Shown here: positions 8,969-50,625 of the stretch, piece by piece | Numbering within the stretch: position 1 is the stretch's first letter | Layout of the letters: every line of letters begins with the position of its first letter | NCBI GenBank assembly: GCA_008501735.1 | Contig: QQUF01000053.1 | Coordinates: forward strand, 62,001 to 126,000 | Direction of reading: 5' to 3' | Source of the DNA: Calditrichota bacterium | GTDB lineage: Bacteria > CLD3 | Length of the DNA: 64,000 bases | Translations under genes and position numbers: made by a program | Notes under the pieces: model-generated | What the model was told of the DNA's origin: nothing | Database searches by the model: none | Seen by the model: the letters and a program-made list of their open reading frames with translations, nothing else

Positions 8969-8988
8969 GTAACGTTACTATGGGGACA
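8969..8988 (+). promoter_or_regulatory. Candidate activator site, second copy
   Basis: GTAACGTTACTATGGGGACA contains the perfect 10-bp palindrome GTAACGTTAC. It matches the element at 6173-6192 at 17 of the 19 bases that follow the first G. It lies about 60 bp upstream of a sigma54-like -24 box and 120 bp before the ATG at 9109, the same arrangement as at the previous FG-GAP gene. Confidence 0.5.
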
Positions 8989-9108: not shown

Positions 9109-10644
9109 ATGTTAGTGAATTTAAGCAGAAGATTAATGATTTTGACTTTAGGTTTGACAGTAACTTACCAAGCTTCTCAAGCAGAGACAACAATTACACC
9201 TTCAGATAATTATGAAGACAATTACTTTGGTGAAGGGCTTGACATTGACGGAGATTTTATTTTGTCTGGAGCTTCGTTGGATTCTACAAATGGTGACAAT
9301 GCTGGAGCAGTTTACTCTTTTGAACGAATCGGAACAAACTGGGTTGAACAAGAGAAATTTGTTGGTTCTGATACAAATTCTGGCGATTACTTTGGTTGTT
9401 CAGTAAAAAAAGATGGAGACTTTGCAATTGTTGGTGCAAGTGGAAAAGATAACTCAACTGGAGCAGCTTATATTTTTATGAGGAACTCTACGGGGTCTTG
9501 GATTGAAGTTGAAAAAATGGAAGGTGAAAATAGTTTAGATGGTTTTGGCTGCGATGTTGCAATTTCTGGAAATTATGCGATTGTTGGTGCTTTTGGAGTT
9601 AATTCAACTTCCTCAAGTACCACGATGAATTGGAATGGAGCAGTTTACGTTTATGAAAAGAAAACACCTTTCTTTTGGAAGAAAATCGCAGTTTTAAAAC
9701 CAACGGCAACAGATGCGACTGCAAAATTTGGAGCAAGTGTTGACATTGACGGGAATAACATCGTTGTCGGAGCTTGTGGTGAATACTACCTTAAAGGGGC
9801 AGTTTATATTTATGAGATAAAAAATGACTCTGTTGATTTAGTAAATAAATTTTATGGTGATTTAAATAGTTCCTCTTCAATTTATTCACGTTTTGGCTCA
9901 GATGTTGAGATAGATGGCGACGTAGTTTTGGCTTCTTCAGCTTCTGAAGAGATTGTTGCAGTTTTTGAAAAAAAGACTAAAATAAAAAAAGTGATTGTAG
10001 GTGATTCAGAAATGCAATTCTTAGATGTTAACTGGGAAACTAAAACTATTTTAACTCCAAATAGTTCAGCTAATGACTTTGGAAAATCTATTGCAATTTC
10101 TGGTGATAATATTTTTATTGCCTCCAATAGTAATGGGCATTTTTTTAAGAAAGTTGGAACAAACTGGGTAGAACAACTTTTACCAATCAACGCGAATTTG
10201 CCTAACACTTATAGTAGTTTTGGGAGGAATGTAGCGATTGATGGAGACCACGCAATTAGTAATGTTTTAAATGTCTTTTTTTACCCAACTTACTCAGATT
10301 CAGAAATTAGAGTTTATCACAAAGGTGCTTACTTTTTTACAAAACCGACTAATGATGAAAACACTCCTAAAGTTTTTTCACTTTCGCAAAATTATCCGAA
10401 TCCTTTTAACCCTTCTACCAAAATTGATTACGAATTAGAAATTTCAAATTTAGAAAATTCTTCTATTACAATTTTTAATATTCTTGGTGAAAAGGTCAAA
10501 GAGTTTACTTTGAATAAAGAAAAAGGTTCTGTTGTTTGGGATGGAAAAGATTCTTTTGGAAATTTGGTTTCTAGTGGTAATTATTTTTACAGACTCACAA
10601 GTGGAGATTACAGTCACACGAAAAAAATGACTTTTTTAAAATAG
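9109..10644 (+). CDS. Secreted beta-propeller (FG-GAP-like) protein with T9SS domain
   Basis: A 511-residue protein with a signal peptide (about 1-26, ending SQAE). Six or seven repeats of about 55 residues share the pattern 'FG..V.IDGD...VGA.......GAVY.FE....W', which are FG-GAP-type blades giving a single seven-bladed propeller. The T9SS sorting domain occupies about 430-511 (SQNYPNPFNPSTKI ... KKMTFLK). Unlike the previous protein the blades mostly lack DxNGDG loops (they have DIDGD). The ATG is preceded by AGGAG. Transcription ends at the hairpin at 10665. Ligand unknown; the shared upstream elements suggest co-regulation with the gene at 6306. Confidence 0.88.
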   Translation: MLVNLSRRLMILTLGLTVTYQASQAETTITPSDNYEDNYFGEGLDIDGDFILSGASLDSTNGDNAGAVYSFERIGTNWVEQEKFVGSDTNSGDYFGCSVKKDGDFAIVGASGKDNSTGAAYIFMRNSTGSWIEVEKMEGENSLDGFGCDVAISGNYAIVGAFGVNSTSSSTTMNWNGAVYVYEKKTPFFWKKIAVLKPTATDATAKFGASVDIDGNNIVVGACGEYYLKGAVYIYEIKNDSVDLVNKFYGDLNSSSSIYSRFGSDVEIDGDVVLASSASEEIVAVFEKKTKIKKVIVGDSEMQFLDVNWETKTILTPNSSANDFGKSIAISGDNIFIASNSNGHFFKKVGTNWVEQLLPINANLPNTYSSFGRNVAIDGDHAISNVLNVFFYPTYSDSEIRVYHKGAYFFTKPTNDENTPKVFSLSQNYPNPFNPSTKIDYELEISNLENSSITIFNILGEKVKEFTLNKEKGSVVWDGKDSFGNLVSSGNYFYRLTSGDYSHTKKMTFLK

Positions 10645-33113: not shown

Positions 33114-36100
33114 TTATTTCGAGTGTTCTACTTCAAATAAGTTTGGATACATTGAGAGTAACCAAGTTTTCACATCTGCGTCAAGTAATCCTTGAGCTTC
33201 TAACTCTTTGTATTCTGCAAGCATTTCATCAGTAATTACAATTTGGTAGTTACTGTTGTTAGCAAGAGAGTTGTTACCTTTGTTAGAAGTTGGAGCAACT
33301 ACAGGAGCATCAGTGTCAGCAGTTACGTAATAGAAAGGTTCAGCACTTGTTGCTCCTGCAGGGTCAGTCCAAGTAAGAACGTTTCCGACAGAAGTTGAAG
33401 TATTGAAAGGTCCATTAGGGTTAGCTGCTTGGTAAACCCAATAGTTGTTTGCATTAGTTACTGCTGGCCAACTTAAAGTTGAACCATCAATCATTGTAAC
33501 TGGAGCATCAATACTTGGAGCACCTAAATCATAAATAATGTTACCATTAAAGATTCTTGGAGTATTTGTAGCCCCAAAAGGATAACCTTTACCAACACCT
33601 TCTAAGAACTGAATGTTAGCATCTTGTGCAAATACATTACCAACAGCAGTTCCGTTAGTATAGTTTACAGAACCACTTGTTCTTGTAACATAGAATCCCT
33701 GAGTAGCACCAGTTGCAATTGGAACATTAATCAGGATTGGTAATTGAGTTGGAGTTCCATCATCTAGAGCAGTACTTGAAGAAGGAAGTCCTGTGAAACT
33801 ACCAATCAAAGTCCAGTTAGCAGCATTTGTTTCACTACCAACATAAGTTCCACCACCTGTAATAATCCAAACTTCAAAATCTCCAACACCTGGATCAAAG
33901 TGAACGTCAAAACAAGTAATTACAACATCATTGATTGCAACAATGTCAAACATATTTCCTCCAGCACCATTTCCTGAAGCAAAAGTTGTAGTCAATGCAT
34001 TTGCACCACAACCAGCAAGAGGAACAGTGTAACCTAAAGTTGCAGAGTCATTACTTGGGTCTCCGTCACCAACAAGTGTTTGTGTAACAGTTGCTGTGAA
34101 AGAACCTGCAACAGCTGAAGGAATTGTAGCAGTAACCATAATTGCTAAAGTATCACCAGGAGCAATTGGTCCATAAGCTTGAGCAACGATTTCAGGAGTT
34201 CCATCAGTGTCAACATCAAAATCAAAAGTTCCTGAAGCAGGATTGATTCCGTTGTTCACGAGTTCAAAATCATAATTGTTAGTTGAACCGTCTGTTGGAG
34301 CAGTTGGTCCAGTAAGATTTTGAGCGGAAACATCATCTGTTGGAATGAGTGTGTAAGTTGAAGTTGCAGTGTCATTACTTGGGTCACCGTCAACACCACT
34401 TGTTAAAGTTACAGTCGCTGAAACAGTAAAGACATCAAAAGGATTTCCAACTCCAGCAGCGATAGAAACTGTAACAGTTTCGGTAAGTCCAGAAGCTAAA
34501 CCAGTAAAGTTTCCACTTCCGTCTGCAATACCATCGTTGTCAACATCAAAGTCAACAGTTCCATCAGCAGCACTTGCACCTAAGTTTGTAACATCAGCAC
34601 TAAATGTTGCTGTCATTCCTGAATAAGCATTTCCAACAACAATGTTAGAAATTGCCATATCTTCGTTAGGAGTAACAGTGTAAACAGTTGAATTAGTGTT
34701 GTCAGAAAGGTCTCCGTCAGTTGCACTTAAGAGATTTGCAGTTGCAGAAGCTGTGTAGTTTCCAATTGTTAAAGGAGCAATACCTGAAACTGAAACTACT
34801 TGAGTTCCACCAGCAGCAATTGCTGTGAATGCTCCACTACCATCAATAACACCATCATTATCAAGGTCAAGGTCAACAGTTCCGTCTGCAGGGTTTAAAC
34901 CGAAGTTGTAAACTGAAACATCAAAAGTTGTTGTTGCACCAACAGGAGCAGCACCATTTAAAGCAACTGAAGTAACAGCAACATCATCAGTTCCTTCAGT
35001 AATACTTACGTGGTCAATTGCAGCGTCACCGTCACAACATCCACCATTTTTGATGTATCTCCAACGAACTTTGATGTTTTGTCCTGCATAAGCACCAAGA
35101 CCAACTTTTACTGATTCCCAAGGATCTAATTCGTCAAGTTGAACTTGTCCACTTAAATTCCATAGAGAAGTAGCTAAAACAACATCATTTTCGTCTAAAA
35201 TATCAACGTGCATATCTCCAATTAAATTACCATAAAAATGGTAATAGAATTTGAGAGTTGGAGAAGCAAGAGAAGTAAGGTCAAAACATCTTGAATCAAG
35301 AGTTGTAATCTGACCATTAACTCCACTTGAAGTTTCAACGAAAATATATTTCCCTGTTCCACCACCAAGTTGAGCAGTTACATCATTACTTGGACCTGTA
35401 TTTGCAGAACCGGTTGTCAAATCATCAATTGTCCAGTTATAAGCTGCTAATGGTCCAGAAGTATTTACCCAACCACTAGCGACAGGTAAAACGTTTCCAT
35501 TTGCGAAAGCATCAAATGTTTCTAAGAAAGGATAAGTTGTTACACAACCAGGAAGAACATTGTAAGTACCTGTTGAATTGTCATTTAATGGCTCTAAGTC
35601 AATTCCATTAGTAAGGGCTACAGAAGCATTAACTGTAATTACACCACCTTGTGCAGGAGCTGTAGTATTGAAAATTAATGTATCCATTGCACCGTTAACC
35701 AAACCTGTTCCAGAAAGAGTTGCATCAATAACTCCGTCATCATCCCAATCAACATTTACATCGTAATCTGCTGGGTTGACACCGAAGTTAGTAACTTCAA
35801 CATCAATTTGAACTGCATCACCAGGATTTAAAAGTGCAGTAGGAACTACAAGGTTAGTAATACCAACATCGTCTGTTGCCGCTTCACCAATTTTTACTTG
35901 GTCAATACCCATATCACTTGTAAAAGAACTTCCTGTCATTCCTCTGAATTGAAGTCTTATTTGGTTTCCTAAAAACGGAGTAAGTGAGACAGTTGCTTTT
36001 TCCCAAGGGTCAGCTTCATTTGCTTGTTGTTGACCTGTTAAAACAAAAACATCAGTTGTTGTTGTTCCAGTTGTTTGGTCTAAAATATCAACGTGCAAAT

Positions 36101-39100
36101 CACCCATTGTTGCTCCTACCATATGATAGTAGAAAGTAAGTTCAGGAGCAGTTAAGAAACTAAGGTCATAACAAGTTGAAATAATTGTTGCTTCCAAGTT
36201 ATTGAAACCTGAAGTTTCTGTATAAAGGTAATTTCCAACAGTGGCACCGTTAGTAATTTCATTTGTGAAATCTTTTGTTGGTCCAGATGAACCTGAAGTT
36301 GTGGAGCCACTGAATACTGTCCAGTTCATTCCGTCGGTTGTAGATTGAGTCCAACCAGTTGAAACATCAAAAGCACCATTTCCAGTTGCCCAAGAGTCAA
36401 ATGTTTCAGTAGCTGGGAAAGTAATAACACAACCAGGAGTTACAGAATAACCTGCAGTTGCATTATTGTTTGAAGCATCACCGTCAATACCACTTGTTAA
36501 AGTGATTGCAACAGAAGCTGTATAATTCCCAGCAGTTCCAGGAGCAGCTGTGTTGAAAGTTTCTGTTTGAGTTCCACCAGAAGCTAAGCCAGAAATATTA
36601 CTTGAAGCATCAACGATACCATCATTTTCGTAATCAATTTCAACTAAAACGTCAGCAGGTGAAGCACCAAGATTCTGAACATCTACATTAAGGTCAAAAG
36701 ATGAACCTGCAGCAACAGGGTTTGGAGTAGCTGCAAATGCAACAACACCAACATCTTCACTTGGAGTAACTGTATAAACAGTTGAACCTGTGTTATCAGA
36801 AGTGTCGCCGTCAACTGCACTTGTAAGAGTTGCAGAAGCAGATGCAGTGTAGTTTCCAATTGTCAAAGGAGCAATACCTGAAACAGTAACTACAGTAGAA
36901 GTTCCTGAAGCTAAACCAGTGAAGTTAGCACTACCATCAACAATTCCGTCATCTTCAACATCAATGTCAACGTTTCCGTCAGCAGCATTTAAACCGAAGT
37001 TGTAAACTGTAACGTCAAAATCAACTTGTGAACCAACTGAAGCAGCACCATTAAGAGAAACATCAGTGACAGAAATATCATCGGAGCCTTCAGTAATACT
37101 TACGTGGTCAATTGCAGCATCACCTGTACAACATCCACCATTTTTAATGTATCTAAAACGAACTTTAATTACTTGACCAGCATAAGCTCCAAGTCCAATT
37201 TTGACAGATTCCCAAGGGTCTAATTCATCAAGTTGTACTTGCCCGTTTTGGTTCCAAAGTGAAGTTCCAATTACATTACCACTTGTGTCCATAATATCAA
37301 CGTGTAAATCACCGATTAATAAACCATACATATGGTAATAGAATTTGAGAGTTGGAGAAGCAAGAGTTGTAAGGTCAAAACATCTTGAATCAAGAGTTGT
37401 GATTTCACCATTGACACCACTTGAAGTTTCTACATAGATATATTTCCCTGTTCCACCACCAAGTTGTGCTGTTACATCATCATTTGGACCTGTAGAACCT
37501 GAACTAGTTGTTAAATCATCAATTGTCCAGTTATAACTAGCAGTTGTGCCAGAAGCATTTGTCCAACCACTAGCGACAGGTAAGTTAGTTCCGTTTGCGA
37601 AAGTATCAAATGTTTCTAAGAATGGATAAGTTGTAACACAACCAGGAAGAACATCATAAAAATCTGTTCCTGTATCATTTGTAGCATCTTGGTCAATATC
37701 ACTTGTTAAAAGAACTGTTCCAAGAACTGTGATTTGTCCACCTTGTCCAGGAGCTGTTGTGTTAAAACTAACCGTTTGTGAAGCTAAAGAAGCTAAAGCA
37801 GTGATTGTTTGAACATCATCATCAACACCGTCATTTTCATAGTCGACAGAAACATCAATGTCTGCTGCATTTTGACCATTATTTGTTACAACAATGTCAA
37901 TTTGAACTGCATCACCAGGATTCAGTAAACCAGCTGGAGCAGTTACACTTGTAACTTCAACATCAGAAGTTGGGACAGTTGTATAATTTGTAGTTGCAAC
38001 GTCATTTGTATTGTCTTGGTCAACTCCAGAAGTAAGAATTGCAGTTCCTGTTGCTGTGAAGTTTCCAACAGTTGCAGGAGAAGTAGCTGAAATTTGAACA
38101 GTCGTTGAAGCACCACCAACTAAACCTGAGAAGTTTCCTGAAGCATCAGCAACACCATCATTGTCGACATCGATATCAACATTTCCATCTGCCGGATTAA
38201 AGCCATTGTTTGTTACTACAACATCAAAAGTAGATTGTGCTCCTGCAAATGCAGAAACAGCAGTTATACTTGTAGCTTCAATATCATCACCAGCAACCAC
38301 ATCGTAGGTTGTAGCTGTTGAGTTGTTAAATGGTTTTCCATCAATTCCACTTGTCAAAGTAGCTGTAGCTGAAGCAGTGTAAGTTCCTAATGCTCCAGGA
38401 ACTGTTCCTTGAATTTGGACTACAACTGTATCACCTGCTGCAAGACCAGTGAAAGAATTGCTACCGTCAGAAAAACCATCGTTGTCAATGTCAAGGTCAA
38501 CGTTTCCGTCAGCGACATTCAACCCTTTGTTTACAACTGTAATATCAGCTGTAACTGTTGAGCTGACTCCACCATTCGGAACAAACATTGCAGTAAGTGC
38601 AACGTCGTCATTTACTGGAGTGTCATCTAAAGTTGTATTCCAAAGTTGTGAAACTTCAAGAGCAGTTAATGCATTTCCGTAAAGTCTGAATTCGTCCATT
38701 GCGACACCAGCTGCCATTCCACCACTTGATGAATAAGAACCAACTTTGAAATTAGTTGCTCCCGTTCCCTGAATATTTAAAACTGGTTGAGGAGTAGTAA
38801 CATTGAGAACACCGTTTAAATACCCTCTTACTTCTGGAACAGAACTATCATAAACATAAGTCATAGCAGCAGGTTGATTTGCTGCAGCTGCTCCACCAAC
38901 AATGGTACAATCAGTCATTCCACCACCGCGGAGAATTACATTTCCTGCACCAGCAGCTCCATTTGTAAAACTACGAAAACTGGCTGCAGTAACGTCTCCA
39001 AAGAGATAATTTAATCCGGTTGGTCCATTAGTATAATCCAACCAGAAATGAATTGTCCAATCACCGGTAAGGTCTGTTTGCCAACCTGTATCAACGAAGT

Positions 39101-39371
39101 CTGTAGAACCGTTTCCAGCTGATCCAACTAAACCTCCGTTAAATTGTCCTGCTCCAGGAGTAAGAGCAAAAGCTCCGTTTACTGTAGCATTTTGTGCTCC
39201 GACAAAAGGACTCGCTTCGTTTAATGTAGTAGTTCCACCTGATTCATTAAACTTGTAATAAAGCATATCAGGGAATGTTTGTGCAAAAGCAGAAGAACTG
39301 CTCATTGCTACTGAACCTAAAACTGCGACACTTAAGGCAATTTTAGAGATGAGTTTTTTGGTTTTAACCAT
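33114..39371 (-). CDS. Giant surface protein: LamG, nine CARDB-like and three MAM-like modules
   Basis: A 2085-residue exported protein with a signal peptide ending AFAQ (about residue 31). A LamG/concanavalin-type domain fills about 35-245. Then come about nine Ig-like CARDB/DUF11-type repeats (roughly 110 residues, 'DDV.VTSV......G....FDV.V.N.G.NPADGNVDIDVDNDG..DGS..F.GLA.G'). Among them lie three MAM-like domains starting CV(T/I)(T/F)(Y/F)P..ETFD. Each CARDB unit carries a DxDxDG loop likely to bind calcium. The end has a Fn3-like unit (LSWPAVTNANNYWVYQA) and a helical tail (KELEAQGLLDADVKTWLL). No T9SS sorting domain is present. Base composition is visibly richer in G+C than neighbouring genes. 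It is probably a long adhesin or surface fibre. The tail matches the neighbour at 39686. Confidence 0.85.
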   Translation of the reverse strand: MVKTKKLISKIALSVAVLGSVAMSSSSAFAQTFPDMLYYKFNESGGTTTLNEASPFVGAQNATVNGAFALTPGAGQFNGGLVGSAGNGSTDFVDTGWQTDLTGDWTIHFWLDYTNGPTGLNYLFGDVTAASFRSFTNGAAGAGNVILRGGGMTDCTIVGGAAAANQPAAMTYVYDSSVPEVRGYLNGVLNVTTPQPVLNIQGTGATNFKVGSYSSSGGMAAGVAMDEFRLYGNALTALEVSQLWNTTLDDTPVNDDVALTAMFVPNGGVSSTVTADITVVNKGLNVADGNVDLDIDNDGFSDGSNSFTGLAAGDTVVVQIQGTVPGALGTYTASATATLTSGIDGKPFNNSTATTYDVVAGDDIEATSITAVSAFAGAQSTFDVVVTNNGFNPADGNVDIDVDNDGVADASGNFSGLVGGASTTVQISATSPATVGNFTATGTAILTSGVDQDNTNDVATTNYTTVPTSDVEVTSVTAPAGLLNPGDAVQIDIVVTNNGQNAADIDVSVDYENDGVDDDVQTITALASLASQTVSFNTTAPGQGGQITVLGTVLLTSDIDQDATNDTGTDFYDVLPGCVTTYPFLETFDTFANGTNLPVASGWTNASGTTASYNWTIDDLTTSSGSTGPNDDVTAQLGGGTGKYIYVETSSGVNGEITTLDSRCFDLTTLASPTLKFYYHMYGLLIGDLHVDIMDTSGNVIGTSLWNQNGQVQLDELDPWESVKIGLGAYAGQVIKVRFRYIKNGGCCTGDAAIDHVSITEGSDDISVTDVSLNGAASVGSQVDFDVTVYNFGLNAADGNVDIDVEDDGIVDGSANFTGLASGTSTVVTVSGIAPLTIGNYTASASATLTSAVDGDTSDNTGSTVYTVTPSEDVGVVAFAATPNPVAAGSSFDLNVDVQNLGASPADVLVEIDYENDGIVDASSNISGLASGGTQTETFNTAAPGTAGNYTASVAITLTSGIDGDASNNNATAGYSVTPGCVITFPATETFDSWATGNGAFDVSTGWTQSTTDGMNWTVFSGSTTSGSSGPTKDFTNEITNGATVGNYLYTETSGFNNLEATIISTCYDLSFLTAPELTFYYHMVGATMGDLHVDILDQTTGTTTTDVFVLTGQQQANEADPWEKATVSLTPFLGNQIRLQFRGMTGSSFTSDMGIDQVKIGEAATDDVGITNLVVPTALLNPGDAVQIDVEVTNFGVNPADYDVNVDWDDDGVIDATLSGTGLVNGAMDTLIFNTTAPAQGGVITVNASVALTNGIDLEPLNDNSTGTYNVLPGCVTTYPFLETFDAFANGNVLPVASGWVNTSGPLAAYNWTIDDLTTGSANTGPSNDVTAQLGGGTGKYIFVETSSGVNGQITTLDSRCFDLTSLASPTLKFYYHFYGNLIGDMHVDILDENDVVLATSLWNLSGQVQLDELDPWESVKVGLGAYAGQNIKVRWRYIKNGGCCDGDAAIDHVSITEGTDDVAVTSVALNGAAPVGATTTFDVSVYNFGLNPADGTVDLDLDNDGVIDGSGAFTAIAAGGTQVVSVSGIAPLTIGNYTASATANLLSATDGDLSDNTNSTVYTVTPNEDMAISNIVVGNAYSGMTATFSADVTNLGASAADGTVDFDVDNDGIADGSGNFTGLASGLTETVTVSIAAGVGNPFDVFTVSATVTLTSGVDGDPSNDTATSTYTLIPTDDVSAQNLTGPTAPTDGSTNNYDFELVNNGINPASGTFDFDVDTDGTPEIVAQAYGPIAPGDTLAIMVTATIPSAVAGSFTATVTQTLVGDGDPSNDSATLGYTVPLAGCGANALTTTFASGNGAGGNMFDIVAINDVVITCFDVHFDPGVGDFEVWIITGGGTYVGSETNAANWTLIGSFTGLPSSSTALDDGTPTQLPILINVPIATGATQGFYVTRTSGSVNYTNGTAVGNVFAQDANIQFLEGVGKGYPFGATNTPRIFNGNIIYDLGAPSIDAPVTMIDGSTLSWPAVTNANNYWVYQAANPNGPFNTSTSVGNVLTWTDPAGATSAEPFYYVTADTDAPVVAPTSNKGNNSLANNSNYQIVITDEMLAEYKELEAQGLLDADVKTWLLSMYPNLFEVEHSK

Positions 39372-39625: not shown

Positions 39626-39657
39626 AAAAAGCCGATAGAAAACTCTATCGGCTTTTT
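39626..39657 (-). terminator. Terminator after 1934-residue giant gene
   Basis: AAAAAGCCGATAGA and TCTATCGGCTTTTT form a 14-bp stem with a 4-base loop, 29 bp beyond the stop of the 39686 gene. It separates the two giant genes into separate transcripts. The rest of 39372-39685 holds no gene, only the leader and promoter of the 2085-residue protein. Confidence 0.9.
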
Positions 39658-39685: not shown

Positions 39686-42600
39686 CTATCTACTTTGTTG
39701 AAGTTGTTTCTTTTGGAAGAGTCCCATTTTCTCTAAATCTTGAATTGCGTGTTTCAACCAAGATTCTTGTTTTGGAGTGAGTTTACCTTCATTTTGTAGC
39801 TTTTTGAAAACATTCACATTTTTCATTGAAACTTCCGAAGGCACGTTGTAAGGATTCCAAGAAACAAATTGTTTCTGAGTTATTGCAACTGAAGCACTTC
39901 CTTTGTTAGAAGTTGGAGCTACAACAGGAGCATCAGAATCAGCAGTTACGTAATAATTTGGAGTTGCTGAACTTGTGCTACTTGGGTCTGTCCAAGAAAG
40001 AACGTTTCCAACTGAAACTGCTGTGAAAGGTCCGTTTGGATTGTCAGCTTTGTAAACCCAGTAATTTTGTGCACCAGTTACTGCGGGCCAAGTTAAAGTT
40101 GCTCCGTCAATCATTACAACAGGTGGATCAGGTTGGATGTCAGTTTTGATTTTTACAGACATATTGCTTCCTAAGAAAGGAGAGTTAAATGCCATTTCCA
40201 AACCATCAAGAGAACCACCTGAAATTCCAACTCCAGCTTCATCAAGGACTGTTGAGAGCATTGTTGCATAATTCAATTCAATTGTTCCGTCATCGTAGAG
40301 AATCACTTGGAAAGTATTTCTGAGTGGAGTGTTGTTGTTTGCCAAATAATCACTTCTGAAAGGAACTTGATCCCATTGAATAATGTATCTACTGTTTGCA
40401 GAATCATAATATTCAAAAAGATCACCAGCACCTAAGTGTAAATCATCGTACCAAGCTGCAATCATATTGTTTGAGTTTGTTACAAGAGGCGATGGTGTCC
40501 AAAGTGATCCTGAGAAAGTTGCATCAAAGTTAATCCAACCATTTGCATTTACACTTCCTGAAGTGTAATCAGTTCCGTAGAATGGGAAGTTAAATGGAAT
40601 TGTGAAAGGTTCGGTTGAGTCATCAGAGCCAACGATTGGAGTTCCAAAAGAAGTTCCCATTGTAGAAATGTCAAAGAAATCAACTGGAATTGCTCCATCT
40701 AAACTACTGCACCAAGTATGACCAAATGTGTCAGGACCACCGGAAGCAGGAACAACGTAATAACTTGAATTACGGTCGTCATCAGTTGGGTCTGCGTCAG
40801 TGTCGTTAGTTTGAGTAACAGTTGCACTTACATTAGCAGCACCAATTGCCACAGGGGAAATTGTGCTAAAAGTTAAAGTTGCTTGAGCACCACTTGCCAA
40901 ACCTACAAAAGAGTCTGTTGCATCAGGAGTTCCATCATTGTCCCAATCAAAGTCAACATTTCCATCTGCAGGGTTCATTCCAAAGTTTTCAACGATTACG
41001 TCAAAGTCAATTGCAAAACCACCGGCGATTGTTGCAGGATGAAGAATGTCAACAATTCCTACGTTTACAGTCGGAACAGTTGTATAATTTTCCGAATCCA
41101 TATCATTTAAGTTGTTGCTGTCAACACCACTTGTAAGAGTAACTGTTGCATCTGCACTAAAAGTACCAATTGTTGCAGGAGCAGTTGCTGTAACTGTAAC
41201 AGTTGTTGTCAAAGTTGAAGCTAAACCTGTAAAGGAAGAAGTTCCGTCAGAAACTCCGTCTCCGTCAATATCAACGTCAACATCACCATCAGCAGGATTC
41301 AATCCAAAGTTTTTAACATCAACATCAATTGTCATTGTGTTTCCGACAAAAGCAGAACCAACAATAGTAACTAATGTAACTCCAACGTCTTCTGATGCTT
41401 GTTCATCAATTACAACATCATCAATTGCAATATCACTTTCAAAAGATTGAGAAGGTTTATCGCCTCTGAAAATTATTCTAACTGTTTCACCTAAGAAAGC
41501 ACTTAAGTCAACTTTAGCTTGTAACCAAGGGTCAGTTGGAGCATTTTGTTGAAGTCCTGAAATGGTGAAAACATCTTGAGTTGTAACACCTGTTGTGAAA
41601 TTCAAAACGTCAACGTGCAAATCACCGATTCCAGCAGCATTGCCATCGTACATATGATACCAGAATGATAACTCTGGAGCTGTTAAAAATGATAAATCCA
41701 TACAAGGAGAAGATAAAGAAGGACTTTCAATATTAGTCCAATCTGAAGCTTGAGTGTATGCAAACATTCCACTCCCACTTGTGTGGTCAGCAGAAGGTCC
41801 TGTTTGCCAGTTTGTACCTACAGAAGTTATTTGCCAGTTTGCATCAGGGTCAGTGTTTTCCCAACCGGTTGCAATGTCAATTGGGAAAGTCATTGCATCA
41901 AAGTTTTCAGTGTAAGGGAATGCATTTACACAAGGAGGAATTGCATTGTAAGTAGTTGACCAAGAATCATTTGAAGCATCAGAGTCAATTCCACTTGTTG
42001 CAACAACAGTTGCATCAGCAGTGTAACTTCCCGGAGTTGCAGGTGCAAAACCGTTGCTTACAGTAACAATTGTAGAAGCTCCGGAAGCTAATCCGGTGAA
42101 ACTTGCAGTTGCATCATCAACACCGTCACCGTCAATATCAATATTTACATCTCCGTCAGCAGTGTTTGTTCCATAGTTGAAAATTTCAACATCAAAAGAA
42201 ATCGGAGTACCGGCAATTGAACCTGCTGTTGTCATTCCAAGAATTGCAACATCGTCAGCAGCTTGTTCGCCAACTGTTACGTCGTCAATTGCAATATCGC
42301 TTTCAAAAGATTGGACAGGTTTATCACCTCTAAAAAAGATTCTTATTGTTGAACCTACAAAAGCAGAAAGGTCAACTTTAGCTTGTAACCAAGGGTCAGT
42401 TGAAGAAAATTGCTGATTTCCACCTGAAATTACAAAAACATCTTGAGTAACTGTTCCGGCAGTTTGGTCTTCTATGTCAATGTGTAAATCACCAATTGCA
42501 TTGAGTACATCTTCATCGTACATATGGTACCAAAATGATAATTCAGGAGAAGTTAAAAAGGATAAATCCATACAAGGAGCAGCTAAAGTAGGAGTTTCTG

Positions 42601-45490
42601 CATTACTCCAGTTATCAGCTTGAGTGAACATAAATTGCCCACTTCCCGTGTGGTCAAAATCAGGTCCTGTTTGCCAGTTTGGAGTTGGTCCAAAACTTGG
42701 TTGCCAATTTGCAACACCATCAGTGTTTTCCCAACCGGTTGCAATGTCAACAGGGAAAGTCATTGCGTCAAAGTTTTCAACGTAAGGGAAAGCATTCACA
42801 CAACCTGGAATTGCACTGTAAGTAACAGACCAAGTATCGTTTGAAGCATCAGTATCAATTCCACTTGAAAGAACGACAGTTGCATCAGCGGTGTAATTTC
42901 CTGCAATTACAGGAGCAAATCCGTTACTAACCGTAACAGTCGTTGAAGTATTTGGAGCTAAACCTGTGAAACTTGCAGTTGCATCAGTAACACCATCTCC
43001 GTCAATATCAACATTTACATCTCCATCAGCAGTGTTTAAACCGTAATTGTAAACTACAACATCGAAAGAAATAGGAGCACCTGCAACCGAACCAGCAGTT
43101 GTCATTCCAAGAATTGCTGCATCATCAGTAGCTTGTTCGCCAACTCTTAAATCGTCAATTGCCATATCGTGTTCAAAAGTTTGAGCAGGTTTATCGCCTC
43201 TAAAAATAATTCTTACAGTTGACCCTGCAAAAGCTGAAAGATTAACTTTAGCTTGTAACCAAGGGTCAGTTGGAGAACTTTGTTGGTTGCCTGAAATCAC
43301 AAAAACATCTTGTGTAAGAGTTCCGAAACTTTGGTCTTCAATGTCGACGTGCAAATCTCCCATTGGAGTAGAATTTCCATCGTACATATGATACCAGAAT
43401 GATAATTCAGGTGAAACTAAAAGTGATAAGTCCATACAAGGAGAAGATAACATTGGGTCTTCAAAATTACTCCAGTTATTAGCTTGTGTGAACATAAATT
43501 GTCCTGTTCCACTTGTGTGGTCAAAATCAGGTCCTGTTTGCCAGTTTGGAGTTGGTCCTGAACTATTTTGCCAATTCACGTCAGGGTCAGAATTTGTATT
43601 TTCCCAACCAGTTGCGATGTCAATAGGAAAAGTCATTGTGTCAAAATTTTCAGTGTATGGGAAAGCTTGAACGCAACTTGGAACAGCACTGTAACCAATT
43701 GACCAAGAATCATTTGTTGGGTCGCCGTCAATTCCACTTGAAAGAACAACAGTTGCATCAGCAGAATAACTTCCGGGAGTTGCAGGAGCTGTTGCATTTA
43801 CAGTAACAACCATTGAAGCTCCAGAAGCTAATCCGGTGAAACTTGCAGTTGCATCATCAACACCATCTCCGTCAGTGTCAATACTTACATCACCAGCAGC
43901 AGTGTTTAAACCAAAGTTTTCAACTGTTACGTCAATAGTGAAAGGAGAGTTTACACTTCCACCGGAAGTTGACATTGCAGTAATTCCTGCATCATCATTT
44001 GCTTTCTCACCAACGAAGAAATCATCAACAGCAATATCACTTTCAAAAGATTGTGCAGGTTTTGTTCCTCTAAAGATTACTCTAATTGTTGAGCCTGCAA
44101 AAGCTGCGAGGTCGATTTTAGCTTGTAACCAAGGGTCAAGAGTTGAGAATTGTTGACTTCCTTGAAGCACGAAAACATCTTGGGTAAGAGTTCCGTTAGT
44201 TAAGTCAGCAATGTCAATGTGCAAATCACCAACTCCGTTGAAATTGTCATCAAACATATGATACCAAAAAGCCATTTCAGGATTTATCAATAAAGATAAA
44301 TCAAAGCAATTTGAGTAAAGAGTTGGAGTTTCAAAATCGCCCCAATTTGTAGCTTGAGTGTAAATAAATTGTCCACCTCCAGTATGGTCAGCAGAAGGTC
44401 CTGTTTGCCAGTTTCCTGTTGGTCCTGAACTTAATTGCCAATTTGCATTAGGGTCAGTGTTTTCAAATCCTGTTGAGATGTCAATTGGGAAAGTCATTGC
44501 ATCAAAATTTTCGAGATAAGGATAAGTAATGACACAAGGAGGAGTTACACTGTAAGTTACAGAACCCATATCGTTTCCACTATTGGGGTCAACACCACTT
44601 GTGAGCGAAACAGTTGCAGTAGCTGTGTAAATTCCAGCAGTTGCTGGAGCATTCACAGGAATTATAACTGTTGTTGTTGCACCTGCTGCTGCTAAACCAG
44701 TGAAACTTCCACTTCCGTCATCAACTCCGTCTCCGTCGATGTCAATTCCTACAGTTCCGTCGGCAGAAAGTCCGGCAGTTCCAATATTTATTACTGTAAC
44801 TTCATAATTTGTTAATGCACTTGAAGCGGTTGAACCTCCGGGAACAACAACAGATGTAATTCCTACATCTTCTGCTCCGGGAACCTGACCTGTTAATTCA
44901 AAATCATCAATGAACCAACCTGCTGTGTTATTTGCAAAGTCATCTCCTGTATCAAATCTAAATCTGATTTTAATATTTCCCCAAGTTGGGTCTAAAGGAA
45001 TTGAAACCAATTCCCATACTTGTTGGGTAGCAGGGTCGAATTGCTCTGCATAAGCAATTGTAGCAAAGTTATCATTACTAATTTCAATCCACTTTTGGTC
45101 CCAGTTTAGTCCTGTTTCTGTCTCTACTAAAGATTGGAATGTGATTGTAGGAACTAAGTAAGTGCTAATGTCATAAGCATTAATAGTAGTTGCGGTTCCT
45201 GAATTCTGAGAACCGTCGTCGTAAGTTGCTCCATCATTGTAATTCAAACAAGCAGTTCCTGCAAAAGGTATTGCTGTCGCACCAACTGTTGCAGGAGTTG
45301 CATCAGCTGCCCAAACGACATTTCCTGTTCCGGCTGTCGATTGAGTATTCCAGTTTCCAGCTCCTGCTTCAAAGTCATCTGCAAAGATAGTTACTTGAGC
45401 AAAGGAAGCTGAATTGCAAAAAGCTATTGCACCCAAAGCTACTAAATTTAACTTAGCAACTTTAGCTAGCGTTTTTTGGATTTGATTCAT
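39686..45490 (-). CDS. Giant surface protein with tandem MAM/CARDB units
   Basis: A 1934-residue exported protein with a signal peptide ending SFAQ (about 32). An N-terminal jelly-roll/MAM-like domain (33-205) is followed by a CARDB-like repeat. Four successive units of about 290 residues come next, each a MAM-like domain ('CV.AFPY.ENFD.MTFPIDIATGWENT') plus a CARDB repeat with an IDGDGV.DATASFTGLA calcium-type loop. One more CARDB, a nidogen-like domain (FTIPFNFPFYGTDYTSG), a Fn3-like unit and a helical tail (FKKLQNEGKLTPKQESWL) end the protein. There is no T9SS domain. The last 150 residues parallel those of the gene at 33114, indicating common export or anchoring. It lies 305 bp downstream of the kinase/sigma54 regulator gene, on the same strand, and its leader has a good sigma54-like box. 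Confidence 0.85.
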   Translation of the reverse strand: MNQIQKTLAKVAKLNLVALGAIAFCNSASFAQVTIFADDFEAGAGNWNTQSTAGTGNVVWAADATPATVGATAIPFAGTACLNYNDGATYDDGSQNSGTATTINAYDISTYLVPTITFQSLVETETGLNWDQKWIEISNDNFATIAYAEQFDPATQQVWELVSIPLDPTWGNIKIRFRFDTGDDFANNTAGWFIDDFELTGQVPGAEDVGITSVVVPGGSTASSALTNYEVTVINIGTAGLSADGTVGIDIDGDGVDDGSGSFTGLAAAGATTTVIIPVNAPATAGIYTATATVSLTSGVDPNSGNDMGSVTYSVTPPCVITYPYLENFDAMTFPIDISTGFENTDPNANWQLSSGPTGNWQTGPSADHTGGGQFIYTQATNWGDFETPTLYSNCFDLSLLINPEMAFWYHMFDDNFNGVGDLHIDIADLTNGTLTQDVFVLQGSQQFSTLDPWLQAKIDLAAFAGSTIRVIFRGTKPAQSFESDIAVDDFFVGEKANDDAGITAMSTSGGSVNSPFTIDVTVENFGLNTAAGDVSIDTDGDGVDDATASFTGLASGASMVVTVNATAPATPGSYSADATVVLSSGIDGDPTNDSWSIGYSAVPSCVQAFPYTENFDTMTFPIDIATGWENTNSDPDVNWQNSSGPTPNWQTGPDFDHTSGTGQFMFTQANNWSNFEDPMLSSPCMDLSLLVSPELSFWYHMYDGNSTPMGDLHVDIEDQSFGTLTQDVFVISGNQQSSPTDPWLQAKVNLSAFAGSTVRIIFRGDKPAQTFEHDMAIDDLRVGEQATDDAAILGMTTAGSVAGAPISFDVVVYNYGLNTADGDVNVDIDGDGVTDATASFTGLAPNTSTTVTVSNGFAPVIAGNYTADATVVLSSGIDTDASNDTWSVTYSAIPGCVNAFPYVENFDAMTFPVDIATGWENTDGVANWQPSFGPTPNWQTGPDFDHTGSGQFMFTQADNWSNAETPTLAAPCMDLSFLTSPELSFWYHMYDEDVLNAIGDLHIDIEDQTAGTVTQDVFVISGGNQQFSSTDPWLQAKVDLSAFVGSTIRIFFRGDKPVQSFESDIAIDDVTVGEQAADDVAILGMTTAGSIAGTPISFDVEIFNYGTNTADGDVNIDIDGDGVDDATASFTGLASGASTIVTVSNGFAPATPGSYTADATVVATSGIDSDASNDSWSTTYNAIPPCVNAFPYTENFDAMTFPIDIATGWENTDPDANWQITSVGTNWQTGPSADHTSGSGMFAYTQASDWTNIESPSLSSPCMDLSFLTAPELSFWYHMYDGNAAGIGDLHVDVLNFTTGVTTQDVFTISGLQQNAPTDPWLQAKVDLSAFLGETVRIIFRGDKPSQSFESDIAIDDVVIDEQASEDVGVTLVTIVGSAFVGNTMTIDVDVKNFGLNPADGDVDVDIDGDGVSDGTSSFTGLASTLTTTVTVTATAPATIGTFSADATVTLTSGVDSNNLNDMDSENYTTVPTVNVGIVDILHPATIAGGFAIDFDVIVENFGMNPADGNVDFDWDNDGTPDATDSFVGLASGAQATLTFSTISPVAIGAANVSATVTQTNDTDADPTDDDRNSSYYVVPASGGPDTFGHTWCSSLDGAIPVDFFDISTMGTSFGTPIVGSDDSTEPFTIPFNFPFYGTDYTSGSVNANGWINFDATFSGSLWTPSPLVTNSNNMIAAWYDDLHLGAGDLFEYYDSANSRYIIQWDQVPFRSDYLANNNTPLRNTFQVILYDDGTIELNYATMLSTVLDEAGVGISGGSLDGLEMAFNSPFLGSNMSVKIKTDIQPDPPVVMIDGATLTWPAVTGAQNYWVYKADNPNGPFTAVSVGNVLSWTDPSSTSSATPNYYVTADSDAPVVAPTSNKGSASVAITQKQFVSWNPYNVPSEVSMKNVNVFKKLQNEGKLTPKQESWLKHAIQDLEKMGLFQKKQLQQSR
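41390..44560 (-). repeat. Four tandem 864-870-bp coding repeats
   Basis: The same DNA segments recur with spacings of 864, 870 and 870 bp. For example, GCTTGTAACCAAGGGTCA begins at 41517, 42381, 43251 and 44121. Each unit encodes one MAM-like plus one CARDB-like module. High base identity between units implies recent expansion or gene conversion and predicts copy-number variation between strains. Confidence 0.85.
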
Positions 45491-45581: not shown

Positions 45582-45598
45582 AGACAAGATTTGTGCCA
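45582..45598 (-). promoter_or_regulatory. Likely sigma54 promoter of giant gene
   Basis: On the minus strand TGGCACA is followed by AATC and TTGTC. This fits the sigma54 consensus TGGCACG-N4-TTGCA with the correct spacing and one mismatch in each core. It is the best of the three such sites found in front of surface-protein genes in this window, and lies next to a sigma54-activator gene. Confidence 0.55.
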
Positions 45599-45795
45599 AA
45601 AGAAAGGAAGAAATATACTTAGAATAGCCCAAATAATAGAGTAATTTTTGAAATGATTGAAAGCTTTAAGTGTAGCGTTTTGGTGCACTTGAAGGGGCGT
45701 TTGAGTAATTGCCTTGTTTATCTAATTGTTTTGTAGGGGTTTATGGCAATTGTTTCAAGTCGGTACGTTGTCTCGATTTAGGACAGTTAATGTGC

Positions 45796-48700
45796 TTATC
45801 TTGAAGCTGGTAAGTTATGTTTTTCTAAAATTCTGTAAAGACGTGAACGACCGATATTTAAATTGCTTGCTGTTTTGGAAAGATTCCAGTTTGAATTTTC
45901 AAGAGCTTCAATAACTACTTTTTTTTCAGTTAGTTCAAGAATACTGTTTAAACTTCGACCTTCGATTGAGAAATCATTAGTTTGGTTTGTGGAAGGGCTT
46001 TCATTCTTTTGCTCAATCTCATTTTCATTAAATAAGTTTTTTAAATCCAAGTTTAATTTGCCTTGATGGTTTAGTACACCTTTTGCGATTGTGTTTTCAA
46101 GTTCTCGGACATTTCCGACCCATTGTGAAGATTTAAGAAATTCTATTGATTTTAAAGTAAAGCCTTTTATTTCCTTATTCATTTCTTTGCAGTATTTCTC
46201 TAAAAAATAATAGGATAAAGGGAGAATATCACTTACTCTTTCCCGTAAAGGTGGAATTTCGATTTTTAACACATTGAGCCTGTGGTAAAGGTCTTCCCTA
46301 AAAGTTCCTTTTGAAATTTCATCTTTTAAATTTCTATGAGTTGCAGTAATTATTCTCGTATTGATTGAGATTGGATTTTTTCCACCGACTCTCCAAATTT
46401 GTTTTTCTTCTATTGCACGAAGTATTTTGGCTTGGTTTTCAAGTGAAAGTTCTGCAATCTCATCTAAGAAAAGAGTTCCATTATCCGCTAACTCAAATTT
46501 ACCTTGTCGTTCAAAAGCACCTGTAAAAGAGCCTTTCTCGTGACCAAAAAGTTCACTTTCAACTAAACCTCTTGGCAAAGCGGCACAATTTATTGCAATA
46601 AATGGATTATTTTTATTTTCGCTAATGTAATGGATTGATTTTGCAACCAATTCTTTCCCTGTTCCTGTTTCGCCGTAAATAAAAACAGGTAATTTAACTT
46701 TTGAGGTATTTTCAATTTGTTTGTAAACCTTTTGCATTTCGACGCTGTTACCGACGAACATTCCAAGTCTTCTTATTTTAGACTCAAATTGAAATGTTTT
46801 ATTTTTTTCTTGTTGCCATAAAACAGAGGAAATTAATTTAGTGAGTGTCAAAACATTATTTAGGTTTTTAGTTTTGAAAACTCCTTTTTCAACTTGACAT
46901 CTGTCTAAGTAAATTGCACCGATTATTTCATTGTTAATTTTTAAAGGGACTGAAATTACAGACAGAAAAATTTTTCCATAAACACTTACGTTATGCTTAA
47001 ACTGAGTAGACTCAACGGCATTTTCAATTAATGTCGGCTTATTTTGCCTAATTGATTCCTGCAAAATTCCTCGGCTAAAGTCAAAATCTTCACCTTCTAA
47101 GCCCGGGGATAATGCTCGCATTTCAAAGTAGTTTGTATTCTCTTTGTAATAAATAATTTGACCTCTGTCAGCGTCACACTCACGAATTAAAAAATTAAGA
47201 ATTTCAGTGTAAATAATTTCCGGGTCCATCCACTTTGTTAGTGCTTCAACTAAGGACAAAGTTGTTTGAGAAATTGAAGAGTCTGTATTACTTGAATTCA
47301 AAAGCTCATCAATTTTTCTTTGGTAAGTAAATTTTGGTGAACTTTGATTTATTTTGAAAAAATACTCCAACGCTTTACGACGGTATTTTTCTCTATCAAT
47401 TTCTAAATGTGAAGGCTTTTCTGCAAAGTTGAAATATGTGTGGTAAATTTTAGCGTATTCAAAGTCATTTACAGCACTTTTTAAAAGAGATTCTAAATTT
47501 TTGAATGCTTCAATTTGATTTCCAATTGCAAATTCAATTTGAATGAGGAGCAAATCATTTTCAAAAATATCTTGCATTAATCCGTAACTGTTCCACTTTT
47601 TAGCTTCTAAAGCGTAAGATTGGGCTTTAAGTTCTTCACCCATTGCAAAGTAAGATTGTGCTAAGTTTATATTCGCACTATGAATGACTAAAAAGAATTC
47701 TATTTCTTTGGCTTTCTCTAAACCTTTGTTAAAGTAATAAATTGCATTTTTATAATCTTTGTTGATATAGTAACAAACTCCGAGATTCAAAAGAGTATTT
47801 GTGGCATTTAATCTCATTCCAAATCGATTGCTCAGTTTAAGATTTTCTAAACTAATTTGTATCGAGTTATCAATTTTACCGGTTTTGAGAAAAATAATTC
47901 CTAATACATCATTACAAGTTAATATCGTATCAATGATATTTTCTTTTTTAGCATTTTTCTTTCTTTTATTTAAAAAACTTAGTGCTTCCTTAACTTCTTC
48001 TTTTGTGTCTGCAAATTTGTAAATGTCCAACAAAGCCGATTCAATTAAGCTTTCATCTTTAAGTTCTTTTGCAATTTCCAGCCTTTTCTTTGTAACTAAT
48101 TTCGCTTTAGGTTGTTCGTACTTACTTAAATAGAAGTAAAAATAAATTTGATAAACATTTACTAAGTCTGTTTTCGAATTTTCTTGTTCAAATAGTTTTA
48201 TGGCTTTGTCAAAATTCTTTTTTGCTTCTTCAAACTTTCCTTGATTGTATTGAAGTTCTCCAATTCCTTGTGAAACTCGCCCAACTCTTAAGTCGTCATT
48301 AATTTCCAATGCTAATTTTAATGCTTTGTTTAAAGAATCATTTTGCTCTTTTAGTTTGGTTAGATTTTCTAGCAAAACATTTCTTTTAAGCAAGAAGTCA
48401 ATTTCTAATTCCTTATCTCCCGTCTTTTGAGCAAGTTCAATTACCTGAGCGTAGAAGTATTCTGCTTTTAAATATGAGAATTCTTTGTTGTTAAAATCTC
48501 CTGCTAAAGAACAATATTCAATTGCCTTCGTATAGTTTTTAGCCAAATAAAAATGTTTTGCAAGTTCATCAAAAATTTGTTCCAAATTCTCTGAGTTTTG
48601 TTTCTCAAGATAAAATCCTACTTTTTCATGAAATTCTTTTTTCTCAGAAAAGTTTACCAAAAGTGATTCGCAGATTGCATCGTATGTAAACTCAAATGAA

Positions 48701-50625
48701 CTTTGAACTTTATTTTTGATTAGCCCTTCAAATCGAGCTTCTTCGAGTAAATTTAAAACAGTGTTTTCTTCAATTTCAAGTAAGTCAATTAATTGTTGTG
48801 AACTAAACGTTTTACCAATAATTGAAGCAACTTGTAAGCATTTTAGAACTTCAGGTCTAAGAAGTTCTAATTGTTTAGTTAAAATGTGTTGAATTGAACT
48901 TGGAAGTTTGAGTTCTTCAATTGAACTTTCGTTTAAAATCCACTTACCATTTTCCAATTTTATTTTTTCGGTTCTTAATAAGTAACGAACGATTTCCGAA
49001 ATAAAAAGTGGGTTTCCACTGCAACGTTTCATTACTCCTTTTGCAAAATCTTCATTTATCGGCTCAGACTTACCAAGCATTGAAGTTAGAAGTGCCGAAA
49101 CTGAATTTAAGTCTAATGGCTTTAAGTGAATAGTTTCTAAATATTCTTCAACTTTTTCAAAATTTGTAAGGATTCGTTTAAATGGAAGTGAGTCTGAAAA
49201 TTGTGACCGAGAAGTTCCAACAAAGTAAATTGGAAGTTTATGAATGTTTTTGAAAAGGAAATTTAGCCAATTGCACGTTTTTTCGTCAGCCCATTGGAGG
49301 TCGTCAAAAAAAATAATTATTGGATTTTTATCAAAAACAATTTCTGACAGATTAGTAAAAAAAGTCTGTACAGTTTCAAAAAATCTAATCTCATCGTTTA
49401 CTTTTGCTAAAGTGAAAGGTTGTTGCTCAAGTAAACTCAGTAATTCTTCGTCTTGAGGCTCTGAACATAAGTCAAGTAGAATTTTACCATTGTTACCAAG
49501 TATTTCAGCTTTTTTATGATTCTCCAAACCTTTTAACGAGGTTAAACATTGTTTGATAATCTCTGAAAGAGGTTTGTAAATCCCACTTCCATTGACACAA
49601 AAAGTTTCAAAAATATTAACTTTAAACAAATTAAGCCCAACACAAAATTCATTCCAAAGTTTTGTTTTACCGACTCCCGAATCACCCAAAATTAAAACAG
49701 CTTTACCACGACTGCTAGTTACTTGGTGAAAATTATTTTCTAAAGAATAAAGAAATTCCTCTCTTCCAACAAAAGTAGGAGGTAAAAGTCGTTTCTGACC
49801 AGAATTGATTTTTGAAATCTCACGTTCACTCAAAAAGACTTTTAGTTCGTCAATCAAATTTCTTGCTGATTGAAATCTATCTTTTGGGTTTTTAGCTAAA
49901 AGTTTTTCGATAATATTTTTTAGCGAATTAGGGATTTCAGATGGAAGTTCTTTAGGAAAAACCAAAGGTGATTTTATATGAGCCAAAATGATTTCGGTGT
50001 TTGTTTTTCCGTCGAATGGTAGTTTACCTGTAATCAATTCGTAAAGAATCACTCCAAGTGAATAAAGGTCGCTTCTTCCGTCAATTTTTTTTGAATCAAC
50101 GCATTGTTCTGGTGAAGCATATTTTATTGTTCCAATAAAAATACCTTTTGGAGTATTAATTAAGGCACTTGTTTTTAGAAAGTCAAAATCGGTAATTTTG
50201 ACTTCTTCTTCGGAAGTGATTAAAATATTCTCGGGTTTTAAGTCTCTGTGAACAAGGTTGAGTGAGTGAAGTTCGTCTAAGCCATTACAAACTTGAATTA
50301 TTGCTTGAATAGCTTTGGAAAGCGAGAATTCTGTTTCTTTGTTTCGTAGGTTCTTAAGAAATGAAATGGGTTTCCCGTCCACAAATTCCATAGCGAAACC
50401 ATAACTTTGAGGAGTCTCAACCCATTCAATCATTTTAACGCAGTTTGGGTGTGAAATCTTTGAAGCAGAAATAAAATTTATTTTAATTCTGCGTTTTTCT
50501 TCTTCAGAATTAAGATTCGGGTGAATGATTTTTAAGGCGGCAATCTTTTTTGTCTTTTTATTTCTTACTTTCGAGACTGTGCCGAATGAGCCTGAAGAGA
50601 TTTCTTCAAGAAGTTCCCAATCCAT
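45796..50625 (-). CDS. Giant regulator: Ser/Thr kinase, ATPase, TPR, GAF, sigma54 AAA+, Fis HTH
   Basis: A 1609-residue cytoplasmic protein combining two signalling architectures. Residues 5-265 are a Hanks-type kinase: glycine loop SSGSFGTV, AALK lysine, HRDLKPEN (about 125), GTIKYASPEQ. The DFG motif reads DFD. Residues about 285-600 are a STAND/AAA-type ATPase (Walker A GDSGVGKTK about 312, Walker B IIIFFDDLQW). TPRs fill about 680-1100. A GAF domain lies at about 1115-1265. The sigma54-activator AAA+ domain (about 1290-1530) has GETGTGKE and GSFTGA in place of GAFTGA. A Fis-type HTH ends the protein (ALENSNWNLSKTASNLNIGRSRLYRIL). It probably integrates a signal by phosphorylation or ligand binding and activates RNA polymerase with RpoN. 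It immediately precedes the giant adhesin gene on the same strand. Confidence 0.92.
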   Translation of the reverse strand: MDWELLEEISSGSFGTVSKVRNKKTKKIAALKIIHPNLNSEEEKRRIKINFISASKISHPNCVKMIEWVETPQSYGFAMEFVDGKPISFLKNLRNKETEFSLSKAIQAIIQVCNGLDELHSLNLVHRDLKPENILITSEEEVKITDFDFLKTSALINTPKGIFIGTIKYASPEQCVDSKKIDGRSDLYSLGVILYELITGKLPFDGKTNTEIILAHIKSPLVFPKELPSEIPNSLKNIIEKLLAKNPKDRFQSARNLIDELKVFLSEREISKINSGQKRLLPPTFVGREEFLYSLENNFHQVTSSRGKAVLILGDSGVGKTKLWNEFCVGLNLFKVNIFETFCVNGSGIYKPLSEIIKQCLTSLKGLENHKKAEILGNNGKILLDLCSEPQDEELLSLLEQQPFTLAKVNDEIRFFETVQTFFTNLSEIVFDKNPIIIFFDDLQWADEKTCNWLNFLFKNIHKLPIYFVGTSRSQFSDSLPFKRILTNFEKVEEYLETIHLKPLDLNSVSALLTSMLGKSEPINEDFAKGVMKRCSGNPLFISEIVRYLLRTEKIKLENGKWILNESSIEELKLPSSIQHILTKQLELLRPEVLKCLQVASIIGKTFSSQQLIDLLEIEENTVLNLLEEARFEGLIKNKVQSSFEFTYDAICESLLVNFSEKKEFHEKVGFYLEKQNSENLEQIFDELAKHFYLAKNYTKAIEYCSLAGDFNNKEFSYLKAEYFYAQVIELAQKTGDKELEIDFLLKRNVLLENLTKLKEQNDSLNKALKLALEINDDLRVGRVSQGIGELQYNQGKFEEAKKNFDKAIKLFEQENSKTDLVNVYQIYFYFYLSKYEQPKAKLVTKKRLEIAKELKDESLIESALLDIYKFADTKEEVKEALSFLNKRKKNAKKENIIDTILTCNDVLGIIFLKTGKIDNSIQISLENLKLSNRFGMRLNATNTLLNLGVCYYINKDYKNAIYYFNKGLEKAKEIEFFLVIHSANINLAQSYFAMGEELKAQSYALEAKKWNSYGLMQDIFENDLLLIQIEFAIGNQIEAFKNLESLLKSAVNDFEYAKIYHTYFNFAEKPSHLEIDREKYRRKALEYFFKINQSSPKFTYQRKIDELLNSSNTDSSISQTTLSLVEALTKWMDPEIIYTEILNFLIRECDADRGQIIYYKENTNYFEMRALSPGLEGEDFDFSRGILQESIRQNKPTLIENAVESTQFKHNVSVYGKIFLSVISVPLKINNEIIGAIYLDRCQVEKGVFKTKNLNNVLTLTKLISSVLWQQEKNKTFQFESKIRRLGMFVGNSVEMQKVYKQIENTSKVKLPVFIYGETGTGKELVAKSIHYISENKNNPFIAINCAALPRGLVESELFGHEKGSFTGAFERQGKFELADNGTLFLDEIAELSLENQAKILRAIEEKQIWRVGGKNPISINTRIITATHRNLKDEISKGTFREDLYHRLNVLKIEIPPLRERVSDILPLSYYFLEKYCKEMNKEIKGFTLKSIEFLKSSQWVGNVRELENTIAKGVLNHQGKLNLDLKNLFNENEIEQKNESPSTNQTNDFSIEGRSLNSILELTEKKVVIEALENSNWNLSKTASNLNIGRSRLYRILEKHNLPASR

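Follow-up and report, generated by a model that had tools for sequence, protein, structure and literature searches.

Sigma54 activators (bacterial enhancer-binding proteins) are an established class of regulators. Within the 64-kb stretch of DNA analyzed here (hereafter, the window), one gene encodes a protein that combines such an activator with a protein kinase, a STAND-type ATPase, and a putative sensor. This raises the question of which gene such a one-chain regulator controls, and whether the neighboring gene for a putative surface protein is its target.

Domain architecture of the 1609-aa protein

A preliminary description of the window reported a 1609-residue kinase-ATPase-TPR-GAF-sigma54 chain, and we recovered the open reading frame with the same length and strand and with matching Pfam domains. 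The range given for it (45582-50625) takes in the promoter site described below; the gene proper spans 45796-50625. From the N-terminus, the protein contains a Hanks-type kinase, a STAND ATPase, a TPR solenoid, a GAF domain, a sigma54 AAA+ domain, and a Fis HTH:

45796..50625, minus strand: kinase-STAND-TPR-GAF-sigma54 activator gene, 1609 aa, ATG start
49870..50616, minus strand: Hanks-type Ser/Thr kinase domain, aa 4-252 (Pfam Pkinase, E 2.6e-52)
48556..49776, minus strand: STAND ATPase core, aa 284-690 (Pfam AAA_16 at 284-460, then a winged-helix region)
47266..48555, minus strand: TPR solenoid and putative sensor, aa 691-1120, ~430 residues (Pfam TPRs, AlphaFold model)
46825..47226, minus strand: GAF domain, aa 1134-1267 (Pfam GAF_2, under cut-off)
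46054..46755, minus strand: sigma54-interacting AAA+ domain with GSFTGA loop, aa 1291-1524 (Pfam)
45820..45939, minus strand: Fis-type HTH (HTH_8), aa 1563-1602 (Pfam, E 9.6e-8)

The GAF_2 match (aa 1134-1267, E 2.7e-6) scored 28.1 bits, slightly below the cut-off of 28.6. The Sigma54_activat match (PF00158) covers aa 1291-1456 with an E-value of 4.4e-69, and Pfam places an AAA lid after it. Both Walker motifs of the AAA+ domain are present (GETGTGKE and GTLFLDE), the Walker A motif of the STAND core is intact (GDSGVGKT), and the GAFTGA loop, which reads GSFTGA as previously noted, is also intact; LevR, a validated activator, likewise has Ser at the second position of this loop (PMC3162934). 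Pfam returned zero HisKA or HATPase matches in the protein, and its C-terminal output is of the sigma54 type instead. A transmembrane stretch is absent, with a highest 19-residue hydropathy of 1.4.

In the kinase domain, the catalytic Lys (AALK) and HRDLKPEN are intact, whereas the DFG motif reads DFD, as had been pointed out, with the Mg-binding Asp retained. We rejected the possibility that DFD marks a degenerate kinase because nearly all family members with an intact HRD also have DFD. The substitution is a rule of the subfamily, not a defect of the 45796-50625 copy, and does not make this copy unusual. In most members, the kinase is conserved and appears to have all it needs for catalysis.

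AlphaFold modeling of residues 1-1125 (mean pLDDT 80, pTM 0.51) predicted the kinase, the STAND core, and a run of paired helices at 662-1110; given the pTM value, the relative placement of the domains is unsure. The top PDB match of the model was 6mfv, a STAND protein with a TPR sensor (E 1.4e-16), followed by the kinases PknA and PknB. Consistent with the earlier description of a STAND-type ATPase with TPRs, the AAA_16 and TPR part is STAND-like as modeled. The protein can thus be assigned to the sigma54 activators on its sequence and to the STAND proteins with a TPR sensor on its predicted structure.

The downstream gene and its sigma54-type promoter

The gene that follows the regulator on the same strand, and the site that precedes it, are as follows:

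39686..45490, minus strand: putative target, 1934-aa secreted MAM/CARDB protein (signal-like N-terminus, Pfam)
45583-45598, minus strand: sigma54-type promoter TGGCACAAATCTTGTC, with core TGGCAC-AAATC-TTG at 45585..45598 (motif search)

The 1934-aa gene starts 93 bp after this site, which is the sole match to TGGCAY-N5-TTG within the 64-kb window, in agreement with its earlier designation as the best sigma54-like promoter there. The product of 39686-45490 had been called a giant adhesin. It has a signal-like N-terminus and MAM and CARDB domains, and no T9SS sorting tail was detected at E ≤1e-3; based on these features, the term adhesin is reasonable, albeit not proved. Further downstream, an intrinsic-terminator-like hairpin with a T run (39630-39653) separates two MAM/CARDB genes, suggesting that 33114-39371 is probably a separate transcript; it has no obvious sigma54 site.

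The genome (4.14 Mb in 59 contigs) contains a single rpoN gene, located outside the window and with an intact RpoN box, so the objection that rpoN might be missing falls away. We counted the motif in 340 upstream regions at loci picked for their sigma54 activators or rpoN rather than for motif content. With 5 bases between TGGCAY and TTG, there were 22 occurrences in the sense and 3 in the antisense orientation, whereas any other spacer from 0 to 12 gave 0-2 occurrences per strand. With TGGCAY as the sole seed, T, T, and G were each found at the correct distance in 77-80% of cases; the next base, C at -12 in the classical consensus, was C in 11% and A in 46%. Unlike in that consensus, the -12 C is largely lost from the sigma54-type motif of this genome, and the window site (TTGT) lacks it, as do most sites in the genome. 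Genome-wide, TGGCAY-N5-TTG has 71 copies, compared with 30 for the reversed control; among 69 sites examined, 52 are intergenic and 24 lie ahead of genes for proteins with T9SS-type tails. The strict form TGGCAC-N5-TTGCW was rejected as a promoter model, with three genome sites in all. Judged by these counts, the actual promoter motif is the relaxed TGGCAY-N5-TTG with a strict spacer.

The rarity of the -12 C and the three strict matches would also be expected if the motif were the site of another factor of this lineage rather than a sigma54 promoter. We consider this very improbable, as the spacing equals that of sigma54 exactly, the RpoN box is intact, the enrichment is specific to gaps behind sigma54 activators (see below), and one of the three perfect sites precedes a secreted-protein gene downstream of another kinase-sigma54 regulator (L062).

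Paralogous regulators, their neighbors and candidate enhancers

The genome encodes ~37 sigma54 activators, and in about 20 of them the open frame extends over roughly 1200-1800 residues; those long activators that were scanned all show the kinase-STAND-TPR-GAF-sigma54 architecture. In a tree built from the C-terminal parts of the long activators, two groups were recovered. Subfamily I (SH-aLRT 100) comprises the window protein, 14 more from the same genome, and two from G001, the one other genome of the family compared, giving a clade of at least 15 in the genome of the window; three further copies in the genome of the window (G000) match the N-terminal part, with the C-terminus missing at contig ends. 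Subfamily II consists chiefly of one-to-one orthologs common to G001 and, more widely, the class. A fusion of similar kind also occurs outside the class (L178). Subfamily I is thus a radiation seen in this family only. The proposed search for the same architecture had a positive outcome, and the architecture is not special to the window gene. Phage DNA yielded zero matches to the protein, and matches on plasmids nowhere covered ≥80% of it; the best plasmid-borne matches, to trifunctional kinase proteins of the kind compared below, span aa 96-826 with about 29% identity.

Mean identity among paralogs is 61% for the AAA+ domain, 57% for the kinase, 45% for GAF, 33-37% for STAND, 33% for the HTH, and 22% for the TPR region, which is the fastest-diverging large domain. 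This pattern suggests a fixed engine (kinase and AAA+) combined with a variable input (TPR) and a variable DNA address (HTH). The kinase ranks second in conservation, and kinase-STAND fusions that lack a sigma54 output exist, as would fit a protein whose main output is the kinase and STAND part, acting on other substrates or in defense, with sigma54 control as a side branch. However, the AAA+ domain is the most conserved of all, the GSFTGA loop and HTH are intact, and a sigma54 site lies downstream of the gene, which together make that explanation improbable.

Thirteen subfamily I regulators in the genome of the window have a same-strand neighbor downstream. TGGCAY-N5-TTG occurs in the gap between regulator and neighbor in 10 of these 13, compared with 9 of 125 other same-strand gaps at the same loci (Fisher p 1.3e-7, computed on 10/14, with one regulator counted twice via overlapping loci). 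Gaps with the exact motif are those of the window, L063, L067, L068, L069 (twice), L072, L074, L075, and L079; TAG replaces TTG in the L076 gap, and the motif was looked for and absent in the gaps of L078 and L080 (2/13). Both G001 members (L163 and L164) also have it. The neighbors of the paralogs are secreted proteins, and most have T9SS tails: they include tailed beta-propellers of the FG-GAP_2 and Ldl_recept_b families and a 2046-aa MAM/CARDB protein with a T9SS tail, and the G001 target is an SBBP propeller. The genome encodes at least 150 proteins with T9SS tails, and the SprA translocon is present. Most sister proteins directly precede a secreted surface-protein gene with a sigma54-type promoter, an arrangement that makes each regulator resemble a self-contained switch of the adjacent gene. 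The HRD motif of the kinase is broken in L080 (HGN) and absent in L078, the two regulators without either a site or an intact HRD; catalysis and the circuit may go together, a hint based on n=2.

Most gaps also contain a locus-specific palindrome in two or three copies over 250 bp, including TGTTACAATTTGTAACA (L079), TTTAGGC-N-GCCTAAA (L063), TTGGCTCTG-N-AGAGCCA (L068), and AATAGTCAAAATGACTATT (L069). We predict that these repeated palindromes are the expected enhancers. A repeat-plus-palindrome score of ≤1 was obtained for 8 of 13 regions; none of 780 dinucleotide shuffles and 4 of 64 intergenic controls reached it. HTH similarity tracks palindrome similarity (rho 0.38, permutation p 0.006, with half-sites chosen by hand). 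The helix IDNKRLDRLL recurs in L063 and L164, which belong to different genera, as does an AGGCG/CGCCT palindrome. On contig C38 (L148, L067; G000), five T9SS-type genes form an array behind an activator that is cut short by the start of the contig; each of the five has TGGCAC-N5-TTG, with TGTACTG-N4-CAGTACA pairs upstream.

In the window's own gap, the repeat-plus-palindrome test gave no significant repeated palindrome. The gap does contain one element of interest:

45668..45690, no strand assigned: candidate enhancer AAGTGTAGCGTTTTGGTGCACTT, 23 bp, at 70-92 bp before the -24 element

This element resembles one located about 90 bp ahead of the sigma54 sites in the C38 array, and the HTH helix of the C38 regulator is similar to that of the window regulator, which is suggestive of an enhancer for the latter. 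The 13-bp core TTTTGGTRCACTT alone was rejected as an enhancer, since its four other exact copies are intragenic with no sigma54 site near; only the full two-arm element is therefore of interest, and its role as an enhancer stays suggestive.

The HTH had also been proposed to serve 6154-6192 and 8969-8988, a proposal that found no support. A single enhancer for the sites at 45598, 6243, and 9049 was rejected because the latter two have a 16-mer of their own, CGTT(G/A)CTATGG(C/G)GACA (6177-6192 and 8973-8988), and exact matches to this pattern are confined to these two places in the genome. The 260 bp on the upstream side of 45598 contain no comparable word, suggesting that these two elements probably answer to a different regulator. 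The 16-mer lies about 66-76 bp upstream of the TGGCAC sites of two FG-GAP genes with T9SS tails (6306-8855 and 9109-10644), and these sites have a variant -12 element (CTG, GTG). A copy with one mismatch stands directly ahead of the kinase-sigma54 gene L064 (C1:61389), a possible regulator.

An alternative is that the protein is a true sigma54 activator with its main targets elsewhere, while a different one of the ~37 activators uses the adjoining promoter and joint duplication of gene neighborhoods accounts for the adjacency. The number of activators in the genome, the gap without a convincing enhancer, the lack of a downstream-neighbor site for L066, L078, and L080, and the L071 site, which precedes the upstream gene, all fit this alternative. 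In contrast, the paralogs precede unrelated families (FG-GAP_2, Ldl_recept_b, and MAM/CARDB), and the palindrome at each locus tracks the adjacent HTH, neither of which is predicted by joint duplication alone; we regard it as unlikely. The best explanation, with a probability of roughly 70%, is that the gene encodes a cytosolic one-chain sigma54 activator that switches on the adjoining MAM/CARDB gene and belongs to a set of at least 15 paralogous modules. Counting against it are the lack of a significant palindrome in the window gap, of the -12 C, and of a T9SS tail on the window target, as well as the two of 13 paralogs that have no site at the neighbor and the manual choice of half-sites in the HTH-palindrome comparison. 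From the comparison of loci, we conclude that the gene is probably one of many private modules, each made up of a regulator, an enhancer, a sigma54 promoter, and a surface protein. Of the preliminary description's proposals on regulation, control of the surface-protein gene gained strong comparative support from the gap counts and the secreted neighbors, whereas a role of the same HTH at the two further sites did not.

Proposed circuit and known systems

From the architecture, the rpoN gene, the sigma54-type sites ahead of the neighbors, and the locus-specific palindromes, all read from the DNA, we infer how binding, activation, signal, and kinase might work in this circuit. At rest, the STAND core would be ADP-bound and kept closed by the TPR sensor. 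A ligand or partner on the TPR region, and possibly also on GAF, would open the core, after which ATP-bound copies would assemble; both steps are drawn by analogy with STAND regulators (PMC6468293). Assembly would join the AAA+ domains into a ring, which would remodel the sigma54-RNA polymerase at 45585-45598, and the HTH would take the ring to an enhancer located between the regulator gene and the promoter. The kinase probably phosphorylates its own chain and thereby sets the threshold of the switch or how long it stays on. Every paralogous module would have its own sensor, HTH, and enhancer. More tentatively, and with the odds somewhat against it, the modules together may form a multichannel system of surface display in which each channel links its TPR sensor and enhancer to the sigma54-driven expression of a single adjoining surface protein, the self-phosphorylating kinase acts as a gate so that one protein spans the whole route from kinase to promoter, and HTH and enhancer have codiversified for insulation.

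The protein has partial counterparts in several systems. The enhancer-binding proteins NorR, NifA, and FhlA likewise have GAF, sigma54 AAA+, and Fis HTH domains in that order, and NCBIfam ranks NorR and NifA, each under cut-off, as the top matches to the C-terminal third; however, the window protein adds about 1100 N-terminal residues (kinase, STAND core, and TPR sensor), and the targets here are secreted proteins rather than nitrogen or NO metabolism. The STAND regulators MalT, PH0952 (the protein in 6mfv; PMC6468293), and AfsR share the NBD, winged helix, and TPR solenoid, but their output is a LuxR or SARP DNA-binding domain instead of a sigma54 AAA+ ring, and the window protein has an N-terminal kinase in addition. 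Cyanobacterial proteins annotated as trifunctional Ser/Thr kinase, ATP-binding protein, and sensor histidine kinase have the kinase, ATPase, and TPR-like half in common with it and are the nearest named relatives of its N-terminal half; they are annotated with a histidine kinase as output, whereas that of the window protein is a sigma54 activator. PorX/PorY-SigP similarly ties transcriptional control to type IX secretion (PMC4800418, PMC8265659), but it runs the secretion machine via an ECF sigma factor, whereas here cargo genes are apparently controlled singly, each with its own sigma54 activator. The open-access papers that we searched include none on a fusion of a sigma54 activator with a Ser/Thr kinase and a STAND sensor. 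The activator class itself is known; the architecture, its expansion, and its wiring set the present case apart.

If the proposed circuit is right, insulated signaling channels can be multiplied in bacteria without two-component partners, the loci offer natural matched HTH-enhancer pairs for work on orthogonal sigma54 circuits, and the protein is a direct test case for a Hanks kinase gating an AAA+ transcription activator within one chain. It would likewise agree with the proposal that sigma54 chiefly governs the cell exterior (PMC3162934), here in a new lineage. Elsewhere, large open frames (about 900-2150 aa) on G000 contig C41:36000-100000 match the STAND/TPR part of the protein at 22-28%.
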